Source: Irineochytrium annulatum (Eukaryota; Chytridiomycota; Chytridiomycetes; Chytridiales; Chytridiaceae). From it: 44,758 bases of DNA. The notes under the pieces were generated by a model that was given only the letters and a program-made list of their open reading frames with translations, did not search any database and was not told the DNA's origin. Both the position numbers and the translations under genes were made by a program. The stretch spans positions 1 through 44,758 of the forward strand of contig JADGJL010000093.1 of the NCBI GenBank assembly GCA_027600665.1. Direction: 5' to 3'. This document shows positions 3,105 through 35,063 of this stretch, piece after piece (the first letter of the stretch is position 1; every line of letters begins with the position of its first letter).

Positions 3105-5900
3105 CTACCGTCCTGCTTCGAATTGGTATGTCTTTACGGAGTCAACGACAATTATACGCCTCTCAAAGAGCCTTGCTATCGCCGCGATGACGTGATGGCT
3201 ACCAGCGTCCAGCGCTCCAGACTTTGTTAATGTCACCGCGATACCGTCCGAGTTCTCCAACGCGTAAACTATCGCCAGTATCTCGCTCCGTTCAAAAACG
3301 GTTAAATCAGAACCATTGCCGACGGTGTCCCTATCATCGATAACCTCGGCCTCCCTCATGTCCATCTCGAGTCGGGCAGCGGAGGCGCGACAGGCCATTT
3401 GCCCTGGGTCACGGTCTGTGAAGCTGAAGCTGCTACCGCCGATGAAGAGCGTGGTGACGTCCCTCGTTACTATGTCGTTTGCTTCGGCTTCGGTTTCTTG
3501 AGCGCGGTTGACGACATTGGATACTCGGACGTCCTCGGTCGCAACCGTCTCGATTGCTGATTTCACGTCCTCAGCAGCAAAGGGCGGCGCGCCATCAGCG
3601 CGGTAGGTCCTCCTCATGTAGGCCGCGCCAGCCTTGCTCGATGAAACGGGCGCATTCCGGTTTGGTTTGCTGCTCGCCTTTACTGCCACGTCACGCAGCA
3701 TGACTTCGACCGCGCCGACGACCGAGCTTGCCATCTGCGACTTCAAATCTGACCCTTCTAACGTTTTCTCCGCTTCGCCGCTACCGTCGCGATTCCCAGC
3801 CTCCAACTCTCCCAGCATAGCCGACGCAACGTCTGCCAACTGCGGCCCGGTGATGTTCCTTCTCCTGTTTAGCTCGCGCAGCCTCTCACGAGCAATGTTT
3901 GCAGCTCCTCGATCATCCACAAGCTCGCACTGCGCTTTGAGGGCCTCAACCGCCGCGTTTGAGACAAAAGAAATCCGCCTCAAGTACGAAGTCGCCTCCT
4001 TGACATGCCCGAGCCGGATAAGCATGCGTGCGAACCGGTCCATGAGAGTATCGTTCTGCTCAATATTGTAGTCGGGCTTCATGCGCGCGATCAACTGACG
4101 GGCAGACGCCACGTTCTCCTCGTTATCGAACCCGTTAAGCAGCGCCAGTATAAGGCTAACAGTCGACTTCACGCCAAAAGCCGGCATCGCCTTCACAATC
4201 TCCGCGGCGTCATCCGTCATGCCGTTTTCAATGTAAGTCGCCATCATGGCCGTCATTATCTTGGAATTCCCCCTCGCGGCGGGGCAAGCATCATACACTG
4301 CGCGTGCCTCTATCGGCCTGCCACAACGTCCGTACAAGCGGATGAAGCCACAGACCACGTATGCTTCCTCCAACGCACCTATTGATTCCGCCTTCCGTCG
4401 CAGCTCCTCGCCAAATTCGCGGTCCCTTTCAGACGCGCAAACGGGTAAAAGCCCCGCGATTAAACGATGGTGTATGGCTGCGGGGGCGTTTTCGCTGACC
4501 CACTTCAGGCCCTCCTTAGCTTTGCAGAAATTGTCCGTCCTCGCAAGGGTGAGTATTATGCCCGCAAACACGCTTGCATCGGTGTTCGCTGGTACATCTC
4601 CTCGAAGCATGGCCTCCAGGAGATAGTTCGCGAGCTCGGGGTTTGCGCTCTTTATGGCCGTATGTGAGAGCGCACCGAGCGTACTATAAGAGGCTTTCAG
4701 ACCCTCTTGGACCATATACCGCCAAAAGACAACCCCCGCTTCGGCCTCCTTGGTGTGCCGATTGCTCATGGTGATCATGAAACGGATGTGGCTCTCGTTG
4801 AGCGCGAGGCCAAGAGATATTAGGCTCCCGAACAGGTCAATGGCGCGCGGCAGCTCGCACGTCCCGAGCAGACCTTGAGCGGAGATCTCGTTCGTAGCCT
4901 TCTCTGCATACCTGTTAACGATTCGATAGCCCTCATACGATATGATTGCTTCGAGGCCGGTAACCGATGGCCACTGATTGATGTCGAGGTAAGATCGCGC
5001 GCCGTATTACTTTGAGGCAAGCAGCGAAATCAACAACAACCTCACCTTGCTCACTGGCTCTTTGATCAAATCTTTCCTCGCCCCAGGATGTGAAAGTACT
5101 TTATCAACCAGCTCTGATAGAATGGCTGTTGACACTTCACTTCCCGCTGTGGCTTCGGCCGTACGCTCTTCATTGCCGTTGACGATCTTGGAAGGTAGAC
5201 TGTCAGTCGTCTCGCTCGGTGGCGTAACATCCTCAGGAGCCGCGCTCGTGGTCAACATCGGCTCCGTCGTTGCTTCGATCGTCGTCCTAGCCATCACCGT
5301 ACGGCTAACTAGCGTTCTCTCGGAGTCCCCCAGCTTCTGCTTTTTCAAATCTTTCGCAAATTTAGCCGCCTCCTTTGCCATCCCATTTCGTTTGTAAACA
5401 GCCACCATCGCCGCCGATATCTCAGCCCGTCCCGGGGCTGGCAGCGCATCGTGCACGGCTCGCGCCTCCCCGAATTTCCCACATCGTCCGTAAAGGCTGA
5501 TGAGAGCCGTGGCCACGTGCGCGTTCTGCAGCTCGCCCATCAACTCGGCCTTGAGGCGGAGCTCGTCCCCAAACTCCAAATTCTTCTCCGCCGCACACAC
5601 CGCCACAAGTCCGCATATCAGACGGGCGTCAAGCGCCGCACCGGGGGCGTGGTCGTTGATCGAATGGAGGGCCGCTCTCGCCTTCGAAAGGTGACCGGAC
5701 CTCGCAAGGGCGAGGATCAGGGCCGCCAGGATGGACGCGCGGGTGTTAGTCGCAACCTTTTCTTTCTGCAGGTGCTTCAGCAGATACGTTGCGAGCTCGG
5801 AGTTGCGACTTTTGATGAGCACCCGAGAGAGTGTTATGATTCCGCTGCCACGGGCCGCCTTAGCCTTCAACCGCGCGATCGTCTCAGCCGAAATCGCCAT
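3105..5900 (-). CDS. Plant-type PLS PPR protein with E motifs and a degenerate DYW-like C-terminal domain
   Basis: Probable organellar RNA-binding protein. Two long frames join across an intron at 4974-5045 (72 nt, GTGAGG...AATCAG, phase 0) into about 907 residues. Start 5900 (MAISAETIARLKAKAARGSG) is basic and presequence-like; an in-frame ATG at 5942 would add 14 residues. PPR block 1 is at residues about 15-200, then a Thr/Ser/Glu-rich linker, then PPR block 2 at about 350-560. Repeats follow the plant P-L-S pattern: S motifs ALISLYGRCGKFGEARAV and FIRLYGRCGRPIEARAVYDA, an L2-like ARQLIARMKPDYNIEQ, an S2-like FARMLIRLGHVKEATSYL, and an E1-like AAVEALKAQCELV. After a linker of about 110 residues, residues about 790-907 match a DYW domain (FIGGSSFSFTDRDP, RSEILAIVYAL, AGSHH, ERRIIVVDSV), but the HxE histidine is Arg, the CxxC is AxxH, and the protein ends at FEAGR without the final Cys/DYW tail. 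Seen: the motif order. Inferred: organelle targeting and loss of deamination. Confidence 0.85.
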
Positions 5901-17727: not shown

Positions 17728-18231
17728 GTCAGTCGTTTGGCCTGGCACGTCGGTGCGGACGTGCACGTCGGGGACCGAGTGCTGCACGACGGAGAGAACG
17801 TTTATCGCGACGGGGTTAATGTCCCCTGGCGGCTCCACTCGATGCACCCGGTGGGCTTCGCGGGCTCCAACGTGCTGGTGTGCTTTTTCACCGGGCGTTT
17901 ACTGATGAAAGGTAAACCTTTGACTTCTGTGGTTTCTGGTGGTCGTGTTGCACCATAGCTTGATAATACCCTTGCTAATACCCGCTAATACCCGCCGATG
18001 TGCTCTCGCCATCCACGACCCCGTCCACGAATTGCAGCATCCTTTGAGAAGGCCAGGGCCATTGCACTGGCCGCGCGTCATACAACGTCTGCGTCGACGA
18101 CAGCAAGTTGCTGCCTAACCAGTCCTTTTCTTCAGATTAATCGTGAACTGTCAATAGTCCCAGCTACTACGCCAAACGGGCTCACGATTATATCGTTGGG
18201 AGTCGCCATTTTCGCGCGGATCCATCGTTGA
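17728..18231 (+). CDS. Orphan coding-like exon pair, unrecognised
   Basis: An acceptor-like TTGTCAG at about 17728 opens a frame with strongly biased third positions (RLAWHVGADVHVGDRVLHD, then VNVPWRLHSMHPVGFAGSN and LVCFFTGRLLMK) up to a good donor (AAAG/gtaaac, about 17911). Joined to an acceptor at about 18036 (ACGAATTGCAG) the frame continues as ASFEKARAIALAARHTTSAS and stops at 18231, overlapping the antisense 3' end of the F-box/ankyrin gene. No start codon or 5' exon is evident between here and PPWD1. It may be a relic, an unannotated 3' exon or chance. The family is not recognised. Confidence 0.22.
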
Positions 18232-20871
18232 GCTCTGCCGCCCTCTTGCCGCCCAGCCTCCTCAACACCTCTACCCTCCGGCCTCTGTCCGGTAGGTAAC
18301 CTCCGCCCCCCTCAATCACGAGATCCAACGCCGTCTTCCCGTTCGCATCGACCGCATTCACGTCGCATCCATACGTCTCCACGAGCAGCTGTATGACCTC
18401 CGGCGCCCCACACTCCGTTACCTTCTTCAACCCGACCGCGTCGGCTCCTATCCTCGACATCTCCACCTCCTGCTTCCCACCGAAAAGGTCCCTGAGCTCC
18501 CCCTCCGGCAGCTGGACCCGCTTGAGGAGCATCCCATTTTTGTGTCGCACCTTGACGCCTCGCTTTTGGAGGAGCTCGAGCAGCAAGGCCTCTGACTCCC
18601 GCCCGGGGACGCGGATGGTCCGCTCGCCCAAAGCGGCCTCGAACGCGCCCGTCACGACCCGGTAGCGCGAGAGACCCTCGGGGTCGTACGGGATTACCTC
18701 GGTACCGTAGCCCTTTCCGACGAACACGTGGAAATTCCTCGGATGCACATCGCGCGGCACGGTTGGGGACGGTATGCCCTCGACGGGGCCACTACGGCCG
18801 ACGCTGGCGAGGTGAAGGGCCGTCTGACCAAGGGGAGTGACGGCAGTGAGATCAGCGCCGCAGCCGTGGAGGAGCTCAACAGCACGGTAGCGGCATAGGG
18901 CGGCAGCCGAGTGGATGGGTGCGAAACCAGCGAAGCAAGCGGCAAACTGGAGGTGGCCGTGGTCAAAGGAGGCGTCCGGCAGAATGGGCATGTCGACCAT
19001 GTGTGGGGCCGCGAGAAAGGAGGCTGCCATCAGCTCATCGCGGATAATAGCGAGGTGAAAGGCTGTCAACTTGATCTTGGGCACCGCAAACCCCTTCGCG
19101 CCGGGCAGGCCGCAGGACGCTAGATGCTTGAGGGTCCGTAGTGGTGCCTGGTCCCGAGTAATCATGGCGGCCAAAACAGCGTGTCCCACCACCGTCCATC
19201 CGTTACCGTCGGCCTTCTGCAAGAGTTTCGAGCCAGCGGGGAGTGCCGCCACGATAAGGTCCCAGATATCCGACGTGCGGAGGCAGGCCACGATGAGGGC
19301 TTTAAGCTTGTGCTCCTCCCCGCCGGTCTCCCCGAATAGCACTTCCAGCATTTTTGCCACTGCCTTAGAGGGGCCTAGCCACTCGCACGCAACCTCAAGT
19401 GGCGTTTTGCCGGCAGCGTTCGCGTCCCAGACAGAGATTGTCCCTTTCAGAATGGATATCAGAGCCTCGAGGGAACGCGGGCAGCATGTTTTGACGGCGA
19501 CCATCAAAATGTTGTCCCTTTCCTCCCCGTACTTGCTGTCAAACTTCGCGCCAGCCTGGAGGAGCATTTGAATCACCGCTGGCATCTCGCGCACCACGGC
19601 TAGGTGAAGCAGAGTGTCGCCGCCGCCGTCCTCTAATTCCAGATCCCCGCCGCGCGCAACGTAGTGGTCGATCGCCTCGATCTTCCCCATCCTAACGGCG
19701 CCCATGACGTCGCTAATGTCCCGCACGGAGCCATCGTCAAACTTCAACAGCTGGTCCTCCTGATTCTCCTCTTCGCCAAAAACTTTGTCATCCAAGCCGT
19801 CATAGGCAATCCCCTCCGCATTAATCGGCCCGTGCGGCGTCGGTTCCGCGTCGGCCCGCACGTCGCCGACCCACTCTTCGTCGGCCTGGTACATGTCGAG
19901 GATTTGCGCGGCCTGCGAGGAAATAACCTCCAAGTTCTTCGCGCCATTGTGACCGTTGCACTCACGGTAGTAGTCTCGCCATCTGATCAAGTTTTTGTCG
20001 GGCAGGTGTGGGCAGTGTGGGGCCCGCCAGACGCCGTCGGGGAAGAGAGCAACCCAGCTCCTATCAGCGCAGCGTTGACGCCAAAGCGTGCTTTCACGAG
20101 AAAGCACAACAGTGTAGGCCACGCGGCATGTCGTCTCGAACCTTAGCAGGGATGATGCGTTGACGTACAAAAGGATTGCGATGACGAGCTCGATTGGCAG
20201 GGCGGACAGAGTACCGATTGTCCCGTCCTTCGACGCTAAAGTTAGGGTCCTCCTTGCGTTTGGTGCATACGATGTCACGGGCTAGCGGGATGGTTTCAAC
20301 ATATGCAATGCAGAAGGAATATCAACGATATAGTAGGACTCACGTAAACTCGCGGGTAATTCTTGATTGTTCTCACGCCATCGCCAGCATAAAGAGCGGA
20401 CGACCGTGCTTTAAGTCTTTTAAATAACTTCCTGTCCAGCTCCAAGTACTCCGCCATCGCTGGCGGCAGCTCCTCTCCACCCTCCAAGATTCTTAGCTTG
20501 GGCAACTCAACATCCACCCCCTCTATAAGCCTCAACGGCGGCAACACCAACGCGTGTGCGCCCATCTCGATGTCCCCGTATCCGAACCTCTTCGCCAAGT
20601 CAATCCGGATGTTCGTCTCTGCGACACCAGTCCGTTCACCACGCCCAAACCCATTCGCCAAGTCAACCAGCCCAATCTGATTCTTCCAGTGGTTCCTCTT
20701 GGCCACACTAGTCCGTTCGACGAGCCAGCGCGCGAGGCGCCTCCATCCGATGATCCCGCGGCGCGCCATCGCACGCGCCACGACGACAAGGCAGGCCGTA
20801 TGCGCAAGCACTCCGCGAGGTACGGAACTGAGAGTGTGGCCGCAATCGTAGACGCTCGAATCGAAACACAT
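18188..20871 (-). CDS. F-box and ankyrin-repeat protein
   Basis: Likely substrate adaptor of an SCF ubiquitin ligase: the F-box would bind Skp1 and the ankyrin repeats a target. Exons 20344-20871 and 18188-20281 (intron 20282-20343, 62 nt, phase 0) give 873 residues. The first 176 residues are an unrecognised N-terminal region starting MCFDSSVYDCGHTLSS. The F-box is at about 195-245 (LSALPIELVIAILLYVNASS, then ESTLWRQRC). Ankyrin-type repeats follow from about 390: GDTLLHLAVVREMPAVIQML, GKTPLEVACEWLG, a diverged middle, FAPIHSAAALCRYRAVELLH, GQTALHLASVG and NGKTALDLVIEGG. Translation could also begin in exon 2, which is open from near the acceptor but lacks an early ATG, so the two-exon model is preferred. 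Target unknown. Confidence 0.75.
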
Positions 20872-22230: not shown

Positions 22231-24064
22231 ATGCACAGTATCACCGTCCTCCTTGCCACGGCCATGGCAGCCGGCGTCGGCGTAGGCGCCATCCCCGTCG
22301 TTGCGCCGGAAGCCATGCAGAGGAGGGATTCGATCACTTCCGGGGCGGTGGACGTTTCTGTCGCAGACGGGACCCCGTCCCCTACGCCTTTGGTCCCCGG
22401 AGTTTCACCCTCGCCCTCCGACGTCAGTATTGACGGGGCTCCGTCCTCTACGCCCTTCGTCCCAGGACTTTCACCTTCGGGATCCAATGTCGCGTCTCCG
22501 TCTATGACGTCTGCTGATGGGCCTGCGTCCGCCACGCCTTCGGTTTCGGGAACTTGCGGCATCTTCCTGGTCGGCTTTGGCCAGTGCACCTCCCTAACGT
22601 CATACGAGATCTGCACTCCCACAGGCAAGTTGCCCCTTTCTAACGCCACCCGATGTTGTTGTACTAACTCTTTCTTTAACAGGCATGGTTCCCGAGACCT
22701 GCGGCGTGGGATCCCAGTGCTTCGTTTCCATCGTCGGGACCCCCCACTGTGAGCCGATGATGTCCGCGTCCGGCGGACCGTCGGTGCGAACGGCCGGATT
22801 CGGGTCGAGCCTCCCAGTGGGCCCCAACGGCCCTCCGGCCACAAGTGCAAACGCGACATTGGCGGACGGTTCGCCCAACTACTCGGGCTTGGTAAGTGTC
22901 CATGCTTCGCTTAGGGTAGTGTTGACACATTCAATTTTGCGACATAATAGATCTACCCCTGCATCGGCGTCCCGGCCAACTGGAGGATATGCTCGCCGGA
23001 CTTCGCCCAAAGGTGAGTTCATTGCCTTTTATGTACATGGTAGCAGCTGACAATAATGACTATTATTAGCATTATGTGTGATGGGACCGGCAGTAAGTCC
23101 TTTTCCACTCCCTTTTTCTTTTTTTATCTTTGGATGCGTTTAAAAGTTTCAAAAACTAAACAAACCTCGCACTTCAACAGACATGATTGAAGGTAGCGCC
23201 GAGGTCTGCTACAACTCGGCCTGCTGCCCCGGTACTGGACACTGCTTGCACCACGACCAGGGGACTTTCGGACAGGAGTGCCCTAACCCTTGCATGATGC
23301 CGAAACTCCCCGGGGAGCAGCACAAGCCCGTCCCCGACGGCACGTTCGTCTGCGACCAGACGCAAGGCCACTACGGGTACTACTGCTTGGACGGGTTCCC
23401 CGGTAGGACTTTATTCGCTCATCTTTCTCCACGCGTTCCCCGCCCATCAATCTTACATACTTAAATTCATACAGACTACAGCGCCCAATTCCAGGCCAAC
23501 CTCCTCTTCTGCAACGTCCCCGGCGTTAGCCACGGGACGTTCTGCTGCGCCCAATCCGTCTCCTGCGAGCACGCCCGGACCTGCGCCGCCGACATCGCTT
23601 CGGGTCTTCCTCAGCACTTTGGCCCCACCCACGGTTTCGGGAACGGGCCAGGTGTCATGCCGACGAACCCGTCGCCCAGCTTCTCGCTGCCGCTGGATGG
23701 GTTCACGGGCTTCCCGACGGGCTTCCCGTCCCCGACCGATTTCCCGACGGACAGCCCCTCGTCACCGTCCGAGTTCCCGACGGACTCCCCCTTCCCGAGC
23801 GAGTTCCCGACGAGCTCTCCGTTCCCGAGCGAGTTCCCCACAGGCTCTCCGTTCCCGAGCGAGTTCCCGACGGACGGCCCGTCGTCACCTACCGAGTTCC
23901 CGACGGACTCGCCGTCGGCGGATTCCCCGACGCCATCGTCGCCGGTCGAGGAGAGCCCGTCGCCATCCTTCCCCTTCGACACGATGCCTTCGTTCATGCC
24001 GTCAGACTCGCCGGTGGAATCGCCGAGCTTTCCGTCGGATCCCTCTGAGACCCCTAGCCCTTAA
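22231..24064 (+). CDS. Secreted cysteine-rich protein with Ser/Pro repeat tail
   Basis: Probable extracellular or wall-associated protein; no family recognised. Six exons (22231-22624, 22683-22891, 22951-23012, 23070-23092, 23181-23402, 23475-24064) give 499 residues with consistent phases. A signal peptide is clear (MHSITVLLATAMAAGVGVGA). A Ser/Pro/Thr spacer precedes a Cys-rich core of about 200 residues (CGIFLVGFGQC, CYNSACCPGTGHCLHHDQG, CPNPCMMPKLPG, YYCLDGFP, TFCCAQSVSCEHARTC), consistent with many disulphides. The C-terminal 150 residues are a mucin-like tail with FPTDSPFPSE-type repeats, a likely O-glycosylation region; no C-terminal membrane anchor is visible. Oddities: intron 1 (22625-22682) has a GC donor (ACAG/GCAAGT) with a TACTAAC branch site, and exon 4 is only 23 nt. 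A related exon lies about 0.7 kb upstream of the start. Confidence 0.8.
23741..23917 (+). repeat. Tandem 30/33-bp coding repeat (FPTDSPFPSE)
   Basis: Six units in the last exon of the secreted protein: 33, 30, 30, 30, 33 bp and a partial last unit, each beginning TTCCCGACGG or a one-base variant. They encode FPTDSPSSPSE, FPTDSPFPSE, FPTSSPFPSE, FPTGSPFPSE, FPTDGPSSPTE and FPTDSPS. High similarity at the DNA level suggests recent expansion by slippage or unequal exchange. Confidence 0.9.
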
Positions 24065-25852: not shown

Positions 25853-27391
25853 TTATCTCATCACCCTAAGAGCCACTCCGGGCCTTTCCGTCCGCACTCG
25901 TGCTCTCAGCGACTCATCCGCGTCCCCCCAGCACGCCTTCACCTCCATAAGACGTAGCTCCGGAAACGCCGACCGCAGGACAGCTCCAACCGTCGCCTGC
26001 AACATGTTGCCACCAAACTCGCAGCCTTTGAAAATGTTGCCGCCGAACGAACAGTCGCGAAAACTAAGGACCTCCAGGCGTCCAAAGGACGTCACGTCAA
26101 AGTTAACGAAGAGCCGCTCCAGCGTCAAAGATCTCAGCCTCCCCGTCACACCCGCGTCCAGCTGCGGGACGGCCGTCGTCGGCTTCTGACCATCGATCCC
26201 TCGCACGGCAAGCTCCCTCAGCCTCGGCATCCCCCTCCCAAGACACTGTGACAAATACGGCCCCACGTACGCCGCGACGAAGCTCACGTCCAGCACCTCG
26301 AGGCCGTCCAGCCCGCACCGCTCCAGCTCACCCAACAGCAGCGGGCCGACGACATTGCGCGAGTGCACCACGAGCGCGCGAAGGGTCATCCGCTGCGACC
26401 GGACGAGCTCGACGAGCGTCTGCCGCGCCTTGGACACCGAGAAGGTCGCCGGCGTCCATCCGCGGATCGAGAGCGTCGACAGCCTCAGCGGGACCACGGA
26501 AGCCACGAGCGGCTCCAGCGTGCCCCGCCCGCGGTCGAGGTGGAGGTGTCGCAGCGTGGAGGCGCTGGAGTCCACGATGGCTTGGAGGACGGCGGTGGAG
26601 CTGGCGTCGGCGCATGCGAGCGTCAGGGAGACGAGGTTGGCGTGATCGCGGATGATCGGGGTGAGTGACGCGCCTTGGTGCGCCGTCGAAGGGCCGGACC
26701 ATTTCAGGCGGAGGGATGCCACGCCCGTGAGATCCTTGAGCGCTAGGCGCTGGCTCTCGTTTGAAATTCGGGACGTGATCTGCAGGGGCCCGTGGGGCGC
26801 TGTGCCGATGGCGGATATGATGGCATCCTGTCGTGGGCTCGCGGAGCAGGACTGGAGGGAGGAAAACAGGGAGCCGTAGTTGATCTCGAAGGAGTCGAGC
26901 CGGGTTAGGCCGGAGATCAGGGCGACGGCGGCCCTGTCGTCGTCGAGGAAGTAGTCGAAGTTGATGTGCCTGAGCGAGCGCGCGTACAGCTGGGCCCTCC
27001 ATCGCCACGGCACATCAGGGCAGTTCATCTGAGCGTTCTCAGGCACGTCAGCATGCTCCAGGGCGATCCGCAAAAGGATCCGCGCCAAAGTCTGTTCTCG
27101 AGAGAACGGGTCGCGGGAGACGGGCGGGCCCCGCCACGGATCGTCGGCGGCCGACGGTATCCCCGCTGTCAGGTTCAGGATGTGTTCGAACGGATCGCGC
27201 CAGAGCACGGGGACGGTGGCCGCGAAGATCGAGCGGGAGACCAGCAGCGCGTTGTTGATGGTGTTGACGGTGGTGACGTCCCCGTCGAGATGCCCGAGAA
27301 TAGTGATCCACAGCTCGATCGGTAGCTCGATTGGGGGCTTTGCGGGCTCCCGGACTGCGACGACGTTGGGCGCGTTGTCAGCATGCTGCAT
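25853..27391 (-). CDS. F-box/leucine-rich-repeat-like protein
   Basis: Intronless frame of 512 residues. An F-box-like segment lies near the N-terminus (PIELPIELWITILGHLDGD, then ALLVSRSIFAATVPVLWRDP), the arrangement typical of fungal F-box proteins that feed an SCF ubiquitin ligase. The rest is rich in short leucine patterns spaced like LRRs (LVSLTLACADAS, LRHLHLDRG, LSTLSIRGW, LEVLDVSFV, LRELAVRGID, LRSLTLERLF, LEVLSFRDCSF). The repeat FKGCEFGGN / FRDCSFGGN near the end is a short internal echo. Fungi carry many fast-evolving copies of this class, so the substrate cannot be told. Start chosen at the only ATG before the F-box. Confidence 0.78.
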   Translation of the reverse strand: MQHADNAPNVVAVREPAKPPIELPIELWITILGHLDGDVTTVNTINNALLVSRSIFAATVPVLWRDPFEHILNLTAGIPSAADDPWRGPPVSRDPFSREQTLARILLRIALEHADVPENAQMNCPDVPWRWRAQLYARSLRHINFDYFLDDDRAAVALISGLTRLDSFEINYGSLFSSLQSCSASPRQDAIISAIGTAPHGPLQITSRISNESQRLALKDLTGVASLRLKWSGPSTAHQGASLTPIIRDHANLVSLTLACADASSTAVLQAIVDSSASTLRHLHLDRGRGTLEPLVASVVPLRLSTLSIRGWTPATFSVSKARQTLVELVRSQRMTLRALVVHSRNVVGPLLLGELERCGLDGLEVLDVSFVAAYVGPYLSQCLGRGMPRLRELAVRGIDGQKPTTAVPQLDAGVTGRLRSLTLERLFVNFDVTSFGRLEVLSFRDCSFGGNIFKGCEFGGNMLQATVGAVLRSAFPELRLMEVKACWGDADESLRARVRTERPGVALRVMR

Positions 27392-27661
27392 GAGATGTTC
27401 TTCGATTTGACATTACAAGTGGTAAAATAGATATTAAGATGTCATGGATGCAGTTCCAGCTACTAACCACCGCTGCTTCACCTCAACGGTCGTCCAAACT
27501 CACTCCACTATGCTATTAATACTCCGCCCGCACACTCCGCTCCTCGCTACAATTACAAAACCCATCGTCATGGCAACGTCGTCTGCAATTAACATCGCCC
27601 ACTTCTCCATCCGTAATTTACATACAACACCCCTCCCTCCCCGGCAGCAGCACAGCATCAA

Positions 27662-31943: not shown

Positions 31944-34662
31944 CTACCGAAACGCCCTCCCCAACAAAAACGCACAAACGATCGCCACCCCCGTCCCAAC
32001 CAAAATGGGCGCAACAAGCCCTTCCAAATCTCTTTTCCTCCCACCACTGCCTCCCCCGGCCCCGCGTTCGTTATCACCACCATAATTTACATCCGCCCTC
32101 CAGCTCCCCGCATCGCTCTCACTCGGCGGCCCACCAGCGCCGGTCTGAAAACTGACGACGCTGCTCCCGCCAAGGAACCTGCCAAGCCCGACGGCCACGA
32201 CCTGAGCGTCGAGGCACAGCATGACCCTCCGCCACCCGACGGCCCTCGCCATCGCCACGGCCTCCTCCAAATCCGCGTCCGACGCCAAATGGACGACGTC
32301 CCCCTCGTCGTCGAGGTAGCTCAGCGCGACGGGTTGGGAAGGATTGGACGGCAGCCGCGGATGATCGGATCCGAGCTTCAGGAGCACGGCCCGCGTCAAG
32401 GTGGACAGGATGGGTGGGCAGACGATGCGGTGGATCTTGCCCGTGTCGAGGTCCTTGAGCTTGAATGTGAAGCTCCCGTCCGCGGGCGCGGCGCCGGCGC
32501 CGCCGCGTTGTGGCGAGCCGCCGGCGGCCGCACCGCCGCGGGAGAGGAGGATCGGCGGGCGGGAGGGCGATGGTTGGGTCGGTGAAACTTGGTCCGACGG
32601 GCCTGCGACACGGGATGCCGAGTCGTCAGGTAGAACGGTGGAGTCGTCGGGCACGGATTCGTTCGATGGGGACGGGGAAGTGATATTCCGGAGGCCGCCG
32701 CCAAAATCGGAGACCGCGCGGCCGACGCCGCGACCGCCAAAGTTAGAAGACTTGCGACGGTGTGGGCCGCCGTGCGCCGAGCGGCCGGATTGGGACCCGC
32801 CCGCACGGCTAGACGAGCCCACGCCTCTGTCCCCACCGCCGACCTCGTCATCCGAGTCGTTCGGGTTCGAGTTAAGCTGCGAGCTCGCGTCCCAAAACCT
32901 GTCCCAAACCGCTCCCGGGTTCCCTCCACCGAGTCCAGCACCTCCTTCCGCGGCCGCCACGTTCCCCAACTGCTCAAGGGTCGTGTACGTGAGCTTGAGC
33001 ACGTCTACAAGTCCCTCCACAACGCCCGTGTTGTCGACGACCGGCAGGTGCAGGTACCGCCCTGCATGCATCTTCCTCAGCGCGTCGATCACCGGCGTCT
33101 CGGGCGTGACGCAGTCCGGGTGCGGCGTCATTACGCGGTGCACGAGAGTCGTGGTCGGATCCAGCCCCGCGGCGAGAACGCGCAGCACCAGGTCCTTCGA
33201 CGTGAAGATCCCCGACAGATCCCCGAGCCCGTCCCCAGTGGCCCCGGCCTCCGAGTCAAAGACGAGCGCCGCCGTCTCCCTTCCCGCACGCATCCGCCTC
33301 GCGGCCTCGAACACCGTATCGTTGAGCCCTACGACGGGCGGCGTACCTGACTGAGCCTGAAGGAGACTAGAGAGATCGGGAAAGCCGAGGTTTTCCTTCA
33401 AGAGGGCGGCGTATTTCCCCTGGCTGCCAACGCTTTGGGCAGACTGGGCGTTCGAGACGGTCTCGAGGCGGTGGTGGGTTTGTTCGTAGACGCGGTCAAG
33501 CTTTTCGAGGGCGTCGTAGAGGCATTTGGTGATGTCGAGGACGGCCACAACGCCGCCGTCGTTTCCTGGGTCGTCCGGGTCGTCATTGTCCTCGATGACG
33601 GGTAGGTGTCGGAAATGACCCGCCACCATCTTGTTTAATTTGAAGCATTAGCGTTGATTAAAAGAAAGTGCGAAACAATACAAAAATTTACGTTACCTTA
33701 TTTAGAGCGTCACTTGCGCTCCCAGTTGTCACCACACTGACCGGGTTATGCGTCATAACGGTCGACACGAGGGTCGTCTTCGGATCCAAGCCCTCTGCTA
33801 CCACCCTGAACGCCATATCCTTGTCCGTCAGTATGCCCGAAAGATGACCCTCCTTATCCACAATAAGGACCGCGTCGACCCTCTTTGCCGCCATATGCGC
33901 AGCGGCCTCCACTACTCTTGCATCCTCATGCAGCGCCACGGCGGGAGTTGGATGCATGGCGGCAACAGTGCCCCTCTTCGGCTTATGGTGCTGTCGCTTA
34001 TGAGCAGCTGGGCTCATCCTCCCAGCCATCGGCCCTCCGCCTCCTTCTCCAGCGCCGGTGCTCTCCCAGGACGCAGACATCACGCTCCTGCTTCCTCCAT
34101 GCGGCATGTGTCCGCCACCGCCTCCATATGCAGACCCAACTTGACTCCCTCCATACGCATGCGGCGGTCCGACCTGGCTTCCTCCGCCATAACCGCGCTC
34201 CGATCCGACCTGCGAACCCCTAGTCGACGATCGCCTCTTCTTTGCGAGCTCCATCTCCACATTCCTCCTGATCTCGCTGGCGCTCGCACTCTGCGCCGAG
34301 GAGACCTGGGACCTCCCGTCCGTACCCCCGAACCCAACCTGCTGAGGCTGATAATACGACGTCGGGCTCGCCATGCCACCTCCGATCGGTGAGAGCGGCT
34401 GGGACTGCTGCTTCGACGAGGAGACCCGCCGGTTCGATGAGCCCGCGGGGGGGAGCTGGTGCGATGCGGCCGACACGGAGGAGGAGGAGGAGCCTATCGA
34501 GTCGTCGGAGAGTTGCCTGCGGACGGTTCGCAAGGGCATCGGGGACGGCGGGGAGCTGGCGCCGCCGTCCCTCGCACGGTATGCTTGCGAGGACGTCGTC
34601 GAGTCCGCGCGGCGATGGGACGGCTGGGATGACGTCGCGTAGGTCGGGTTCGGAGGATCCAT
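31944..34662 (-). CDS. Mug70-like protein: four CBS motifs, PB1 domain, C-terminal membrane anchor
   Basis: Fungal CBS/PB1 protein of the Schizosaccharomyces Mug70 type; CBS pairs commonly sense adenosine ligands, and PB1 mediates protein pairing. Two exons (33697-34662 and 31944-33629; intron 33630-33696, 67 nt, phase 0) give 883 residues. Residues 1-230 are Ser/Gly-rich and disordered. CBS pair 1 runs from about 235 (GTVAAMHPTPAVALHEDA, GILTDKDMAFRVVAEGLD, VMTHNPVSVV) across the intron to FRHLPVIED. CBS pair 2 is in exon 2 (GIFTSKDLVLRVLAAGLDP, VMTPHPDCVTPETP, YLHLPVVDN). Then comes a long disordered stretch, a PB1 domain (FTFKLKDLDTGKIHRIVC to LSYLDDEGDVVHLASDADL) and a single C-terminal membrane helix (GLVAPILVGTGVAIVCAFLL). 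Start taken at MDPPNPTY; an upstream in-frame ATG at 34944 would add a Pro/Arg-rich leader. Confidence 0.88.
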
Positions 34663-35063
34663 TAGGACGGACTTCGCGATCGCTGCTGGGGACCGTTGCC
34701 GATGGGAATCGAGCTGTCGGCGGTGATGAGGGCCTGAAATTGTTGCTACACGGCCAGCAGCCCCACCAAGCTGACGCCCCGATGCGCGTTTAGGATGCGG
34801 CAGGGGCCGACTGCAGAGTTGCGGACGTCGCAATGGTCCACTATGAAGATGTCGGCGACGCGTCGGTGGCGTCGGTGGCGTCGGGTACGTGGGCTTACCG
34901 TCACACCTCACCTGACCTCGGCAAGCCGGTAATATTCCATACATCAGCCAATAACGAACGTTAAATTAGTGTCGCCTGCTGCCCTGCGGACTACTTCAGT
35001 ATTTATTCTCTTCTCTCACAACTGCACTGTTTCCCACACGTCCGCCGCCACCGGTAAAAAGGC
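34663..35063. other. Intergenic between AK8 and the Mug70-like gene
   Basis: Promoter and leader of the Mug70-like gene. GTCGGTGGC occurs in near tandem at about 34862-34883. The minus-strand frame stays open from 34944, so an N-terminal extension of the Mug70-like protein cannot be ruled out. Nothing else recognised. Confidence 0.4.

Follow-up and report, generated by a model that had tools for sequence, protein, structure and literature searches.

The locus at positions 3105-5900 of a chytrid contig raises the question of whether a fungus carries, and still uses, an RNA editing factor of the land-plant type. The original prediction, made from the letters alone, had read this stretch as a PLS-E-DYW pentatricopeptide (PPR) protein with the motif order that defines plant organellar C-to-U editing factors. 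The stretch lies in the Irineochytrium annulatum (Chytridiomycota, Chytridiales) assembly, which comprises 26.9 Mb in 1082 contigs, and the window analysed here is the whole of contig C1009, 44,758 bases.

HK101_011719 is a two-exon gene on a fungal contig

The minus strand of positions 3105-5900 holds a two-exon gene with a 72-nt intron, which corresponds to the deposited 907 aa protein HK101_011719, labelled 'hypothetical protein'. Its parts are as follows.

5046-5900, minus strand: exon 1 of HK101_011719, residues 1-285, containing a linker and one copy of the duplicated PPR segment
4974-5045, minus strand: intron of 72 nt, GTGAGG...ATCAATCAG, GT..AG, including an in-frame TAA
3105-4973, minus strand: exon 2 of HK101_011719, residues 286-907, with the stop codon TAG at 3105-3107

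The two open stretches lie in the same frame and are parted by a single TAA, so that the intron takes out this one in-frame stop and there is no frame change between them. The join across a 72-nt intron had thus been placed as in the deposited protein, and what falls away is its description as a join of two frames. As splice candidates we took GT-AG pairs 40-200 nt apart that span the TAA; the chosen intron gave the longest spliced product of the pairs tried, and all other GT-AG pairs, among the best 40 listed, led to a shorter one. The translation spliced from 5900-5046 and 4973-3105 is identical to the deposited 907 aa in every letter. Moreover, the junction is independently backed by an intronless paralogue, HK101_007585, which is colinear with HK101_011719 across it and reads ...PVEKW... 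where HK101_011719 reads ...PVSK/W... (the slash marking the junction). The gene is real.

Contamination, which was to be judged by the flanking genes, is unlikely for this contig. HK101_011719 is flanked by Cdc24 on one side and cyclophilin on the other, and further along the 44.8-kb contig lie RRP12, eIF2A, a mitochondrial carrier and a CBS-PB1 protein; frames of the window matched Pfam in 6 of 7 cases in one set and in 3 of 3 in another. Since these eukaryotic genes share the contig and the gene itself has a GT-AG intron, it is not an obvious contaminant. The evidence on contamination is thinner for contig 419, the contig of the paralogue, on which Pfam matches three of the seven tested frames: an F-box frame above the cut-off and two LRR frames under it.

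The PPR tract scores as PLS and not as P-type

In the PDB, exon 2 was matched best by 9kfx, a synthetic plant PPR-DYW protein (E=1e-28), with designed P-type proteins at 3e-4 or worse, and a PLS match was found also in exon 1, at residues 92-199 (35.5 bits). Compared directly, HK101_011719 reached 79.7 bits with the PLS model versus 21.7 bits with the P-type model, a lead of 58.0 bits for PLS. PLS was likewise ahead of P-type for HK101_007585, by 32.6 bits, and in the PDB search this paralogue gave 120 bits with 9kfx (E=9e-34) and 69 bits with the best P-type design.

As a control, frames around the PPR matches of the genome were scored with both 9kfx and a P-type consensus. Of 71 PPR_2 matches the control loci covered 30; they came from 9 of the 22 contigs that, C419 apart, had such matches, and supplied 32 frames of at least 200 aa, 14 of which gave a score besides the frame of the paralogue. 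With a 12-repeat consensus 13 of these 14 favoured P-type, by 4 to 125 bits, and with a 9-repeat consensus all 14 did so. The odd frame (L008 frame 0) had no P-type score under the 12-repeat consensus, whereas under the 9-repeat one P-type reached 56.8 bits versus 30.7; in the closest one (L008 frame 1) P-type led by 1.7 bits (9-repeat) or 4.0 bits (12-repeat).

The repeats nearest to the C-terminal region could be laid out on the plant-type structure.

3957-4574, minus strand: P-L-S-P-L2-S2 run, residues 419-624, its motif borders drawn manually from the alignment with 9kfx

A colinear phmmer alignment placed exon-2 residues 174-372 on 9kfx 245-442 (41.5 bits), nearly gapless through L2, S2 and E1. 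As judged by these scores the PPR tract of HK101_011719 is of the land-plant PLS type, and the plant P-L-S pattern of the original prediction stands.

A possible E1-like motif follows the repeats, with E2 and the PG box undetected

Behind the S2 repeat we distinguished three regions.

3858-3956, minus strand: E1-like motif, residues 625-657, placed by colinearity with 9kfx
3393-3857, minus strand: would-be E2/PG box region, residues 658-812, with no significant match
3300-3392, minus strand: possible gating-domain helix, residues 813-843

Taken by itself, the E1 motif of HK101_011719 was not significant, as 712 of 10,000 shuffles scored as high. Joined to its neighbours it stood out from shuffles, S2+E1 giving 8.3 bits (1/10,000 shuffles as high, P-type frames reaching 7.8) and L2S2E1 14.3 bits (0/10,000 shuffles, P-type frames up to 17.4). 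In HK101_007585 the E1 motif alone gave 8.3 bits, a score attained by 1 of 10,000 shuffles, where the best P-type frame reached 3.1; its S2+E1 was clearly present at 24.1 bits. The Pfam E_motif profile PF20431 matched neither protein up to E=10, a range in which the filters drop most matches above 0.1, and gave 90.5 bits with a plant control. Because E1 alone is not significant and the E_motif profile misses, the PLS-E1 reading is drawn from colinearity and the paralogue and has no curated E profile behind it. The predicted order of L2, S2 and E1 thus agrees with 9kfx by colinearity, but it is borne out neither by E_motif nor by E1 alone, and the L2S2E1 score lies below that of the best P-type frames.

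Further towards the C-terminus, E2 gave -0.2 bits in HK101_011719 (2817/5000 shuffles as high) and the PG box was absent from every alignment of the protein. Residues 780-845 gave 4.0 bits with a gating-domain query, a score attained by 7 of 5000 shuffles, and the helix alone was aligned; a gating-domain helix may be present, with weak support.

The C-terminus carries a degenerate DYW core

3111-3299, minus strand: degenerate DYW deaminase-like core, residues 844-906, covering PF14432 positions 22-85 of 93 (21-86 in the genome scan)

Against a cut-off of 24, Pfam PF14432 gave 24.2 bits with exon 2 alone and 23.5 bits, just under, with the full protein. When the whole genome was scanned in six frames with this profile, the sole match was the tail of HK101_011719, at 29.1 bits; among 14 control genomes one had a weak match, below the cut-off. 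With a three-sequence plant DYW profile the last 150 residues scored 20.5 bits and the best of 20,000 shuffles 9.8, by which a chance match was ruled out, and a longer 9kfx query aligned residues 813-905 at 10.3 bits (0/5000 shuffles as high). Against single solved chains the tail reached no significance, with 7o4e at E=0.08 and 7w86 at E=0.31 beside a reductase of no relation at 0.18, and the database's own Pfam listing for the protein has no DYW entry. From these profile scores the C-terminus of HK101_011719 is judged homologous to DYW, so that the DYW-like domain that had been predicted is upheld at the Pfam cut-off and above all shuffles, with pairwise PDB comparison non-significant. Identity of the core to three plant-type DYW sequences is 16, 18 and 17 of 60 positions, and that of the PPR-E1 stretch 49/197.

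The canonical form of an editing factor, in contrast, is not what the active site displays. For OTP86, the published report (PMC7611903) gives H892, C920 and C923 as the holders of the catalytic zinc, with E894 catalytically important, and H924, H947, C954 and C956 as the ligands of the structural zinc (Zn2); it describes mutants in the catalytic signature as without editing, and any change of a Zn2 ligand as abolishing it. On the 7o4e alignment, from which we built the ligand map, residues R847, E849, K869, D874, S877, H878 and Y901 of HK101_011719 correspond to OTP86 positions 892, 894, 915, 920, 923, 924 and 947. Six of the seven zinc ligands are lost, H892, C920, C923, H947, C954 and C956 being replaced or absent, and E894, K915 and the Zn2 ligand H924 are retained. 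The catalytic site HxE(x)nCxxC is absent, with RxE and DxxS in its place and all three catalytic ligands replaced. The protein ends one residue past the equivalent of G952, before C954 and C956, and has no CxCxDYW. A missing 3' exon or a frameshift hiding this ending was also considered and rejected, as no CxC or DxW occurs in any of the three frames over 808 nt downstream.

With the catalytic and three of the four Zn2 ligands lost, deamination by the known mechanism is very unlikely, and since nearly all zinc-binding residues are gone, HK101_011719 probably binds RNA without editing it. The lost zinc sites also put it outside the canonical editing-factor family, against the original prediction. 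Plant-invariant positions are kept in 1 of 5 cases at the zinc ligands and in 10 of 25 elsewhere, which is no significant difference (Fisher p=0.63).

A second PLS gene and an internal duplication

A genome search with HK101_011719 found one further clear match, on contig C419:17543-18847 (L004:1285-2862; E=8e-19). It corresponds to the deposited HK101_007585 of 459 aa, a second PLS gene with a supported E1 and without DYW, which shares 102 identities over 404 codons (25%) with HK101_011719. An in-frame upstream ATG would extend the N-terminus of HK101_007585.

HK101_011719 itself contains an internal duplication.

5352-5831, minus strand: internal duplicate, copy 1, residues 24-183
4191-4670, minus strand: internal duplicate, copy 2, residues 387-546

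The copies are identical at 80 of 161 aligned positions (E=5e-45). The NG86 dN/dS between them is 0.23, with a bootstrap range of 0.07-0.38 and a dS of 1.7, near saturation; this run took copy 2 as residues 387-547 and used 159 aligned codons, all of the PPR part and not of the DYW tail. The ratio of 0.23 argues that purifying selection has acted on the PPR part after the duplication. Third-position GC is 0.56 in the DYW region and 0.67-0.68 in the rest of the gene, with intergenic GC at 0.51-0.52; lying closer to the intergenic value, the DYW figure is a hint of relaxed constraint. Measured against plants, the DYW core has diverged no further than the PPR-E1 stretch, which argues against a long free decay. 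The first reading of the locus had been silent on this 160-residue duplication and on the second PLS gene, as it had been on the loss of zinc ligands and the missing CxCxDYW.

Mitochondrial signals

The first 40 residues of HK101_011719 contain 7 K/R and 2 D/E. At the N-termini no clear targeting helix was seen, amphipathicity being no better than in shuffles. The N-terminus is thus not diagnostic, and a mitochondrial location of HK101_011719 is suggested by its family. Among four profiles for genes of fungal mtDNA, cytochrome b and the nad2/4/5-type profile had no match in the assembly, and COX1 and COX3 matched contig C325 only. This contig (L007, L041; at least 161.8 kb) reads as bacterial by its reading frames and has a terminal-oxidase operon; in a fungal assembly it is either contamination or an associate.

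A probable non-editing RNA binder and the alternative explanations

We consider it probable that HK101_011719 is a plant-like PLS PPR protein with a truncated, nearly zinc-ligand-free pseudo-deaminase, a binder of RNA that does not edit, and a non-editing mitochondrial RNA-binding protein is the most likely function on the present analysis. The lineage would once have had a PLS-DYW editing factor, which duplicated; one duplicate would have lost its DYW domain and the other retained a dead DYW fold. Both PLS proteins may now be sequence-specific binders of mitochondrial RNA, with a role in its stability, processing or splicing like those of the plant PLS proteins CRR2 and OTP70, and the DYW remnant would be at most a structural or contact module. 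Against the pseudo-deaminase reading we count the kept E894, K915 and H924, a DYW score at the Pfam cut-off with non-significant pairwise PDB comparisons, a dS near saturation, the lower GC3 of the DYW region, the retention test at p=0.63 and the want of a clear targeting helix.

The gene could instead be a decaying relic of a lost C-to-U editing system, its PLS part also going and with no present function. The lost zinc ligands, the truncated C-terminus and a GC3 that is lower in DYW than elsewhere in the gene would fit this, as would the protein searches, which returned proteins of its own species, one Vitis and two plant-like proteins (two of the searches scoring the best 8000 candidates). 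However, 907 codons remain open with one intron, dN/dS between the internal copies is 0.23, and the DYW core has not diverged from plants more than the PPR part, which together make a relic rather unlikely. It is improbable that the gene encodes a P-type PPR protein of the ordinary fungal kind whose tail resembles DYW by chance. In favour of this reading, PF14432 scores of 24.2 and 23.5 bits straddle the cut-off of 24 and one of 14 control genomes has a weak match below it, single solved DYW chains are not matched significantly, E_motif misses both PLS proteins, and L2S2E1 and S2E1 alone hardly set HK101_011719 apart from P-type frames. Against it, PLS is ahead by 58 bits, unlike in the other scored frames, and the DYW match sits exactly C-terminal after the S2-E1 stretch and above 20,000 shuffles.

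An active editing factor with a non-canonical active site or a trans helper protein is more improbable still. E894, K915 and H924 are kept, split PPR/DYW systems are described for plants (PMC10226603), and I. annulatum has a PLS partner without DYW; yet all three catalytic zinc ligands are replaced, catalytic and Zn2-ligand mutants are inactive in the OTP86 work cited above (PMC7611903), and the genome scan contains no second DYW domain. Least credible of all is an origin of the locus in plant or protist DNA, through contamination or misassembly, for which the bacterial-reading contig C325 of the same assembly might speak. Against it, Cdc24 and cyclophilin adjoin the gene, RRP12, eIF2A and others share its 44.8-kb contig, a second, diverged PLS gene lies on contig 419 with 3 of 7 neighbouring frames matching Pfam, and no close plant relative was found among the best 8000 candidates scored.

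Within the preferred reading of a non-editing RNA binder, we put forward more tentatively, and with some doubt, that the chytrid keeps the PLS pair under selection after the loss of editing and that the zinc-free DYW is re-used as an RNA- or protein-contact module; HK101_011719 would then perhaps pair with the DYW-less HK101_007585 on mitochondrial RNA.

Relation to known PPR-DYW systems

Outside land plants, PMC4202320 lists PPR-DYW proteins in Heterolobosea, Amoebozoa, rotifers, Malawimonas and Laccaria bicolor, and treats a charophyte record as of doubtful origin. In 2025 they were reported from paradinids, Agaricales and Piloderma, with the H, the E and two C consistently common, the Laccaria bicolor protein having been recorded before (PMC11946409). 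A fungal PPR-DYW protein is therefore not without precedent, where the original prediction had named no characterised fungal example of this form.

HK101_011719 resembles the plant PLS-DYW factors (OTP86 7o4e, DYW1 7w86, 9kfx) in its P-L-S repeats, a putative L2-S2-E1 order by colinearity and a C-terminal DYW core; unlike them, it has lost six zinc ligands and is without the DYW triplet, its E2/PG box is undetected, its gating helix weakly seen and the E_motif profile without a match. With the fungal and paradinid proteins (Laccaria, other Agaricales, Piloderma) it shares a PPR tract joined to DYW homology in a fungus, but these keep His28, Glu30, Cys56 and Cys59, where HK101_011719, from a chytrid, has R, E, D and S, a comparison made with their published description; they have a two-residue deletion at alignment positions 43-44, and the loop of HK101_011719 is short by one residue in our own alignments (PMC11946409).

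Plant PLS proteins with non-editing roles are known (PMC10226603), CRR2 stabilising RNA and OTP70 aiding splicing; RNA binding by HK101_011719 would be comparable, in a different organism and organelle. One DYW-less PLS protein and one with a DYW-like domain per genome also recalls the DYW1/CRR4 and DYW2/E+ pairs (PMC10226603, PMC7611903), but in contrast to those pairs the only DYW found in I. annulatum is without catalytic ligands.

Three protein searches, two of which scored the best 8000 candidates and would miss relatives without common 5-residue words, returned two I. annulatum proteins, one Vitis protein and two plant-like proteins; no relative from another chytrid was among these matches. 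In open-licence literature (CC0, CC BY, CC BY-SA) we found no case of a chytrid PPR-DYW or of a zinc-less DYW; the single paper in which DYW and Chytridiomycota occurred together, PMC11878562, uses DYW for the initials of an author. Horizontal acquisition of a PLS-DYW gene by the chytrid lineage is plausible by analogy with the published cases.

HK101_011719 extends plant-type PLS PPR proteins to a chytrid fungus. If the more tentative reading of a selected PLS pair with a re-used DYW holds, Chytridiomycota would gain their first described PLS-class system, and DYW without deamination would have a case in nature. HK101_011719 also offers a natural test of a non-deaminating DYW fold, of decay after editing loss versus re-use as a binding module. 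With its two PLS genes, the one lacking DYW and the other bearing a dead DYW, the species may represent the last phase of an editing system that was imported.

Other reading frames

Elsewhere in the window, the minus strand at 31944-34965 has two adjacent frames that seem to belong to a single CBS-PB1 protein split by an intron; the first has CBS and PB1, and the second was judged CBS-like by eye. A Ser/Pro-rich frame on the plus strand at 23465-24064, with FPTxSPFPSE-like units repeated (by eye), is perhaps a cell-wall or secreted protein. F-box/LRR-like frames lie in the window at 18188-20281 and 25853-27412 (both minus, the latter by eye; several below the Pfam cut-off) and at other loci at L038:1317-2888 (minus) and L039:945-2534 and 3628-5112 (plus), and these frames, found on both PLS contigs, perhaps belong to an expanded family in I. 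annulatum.
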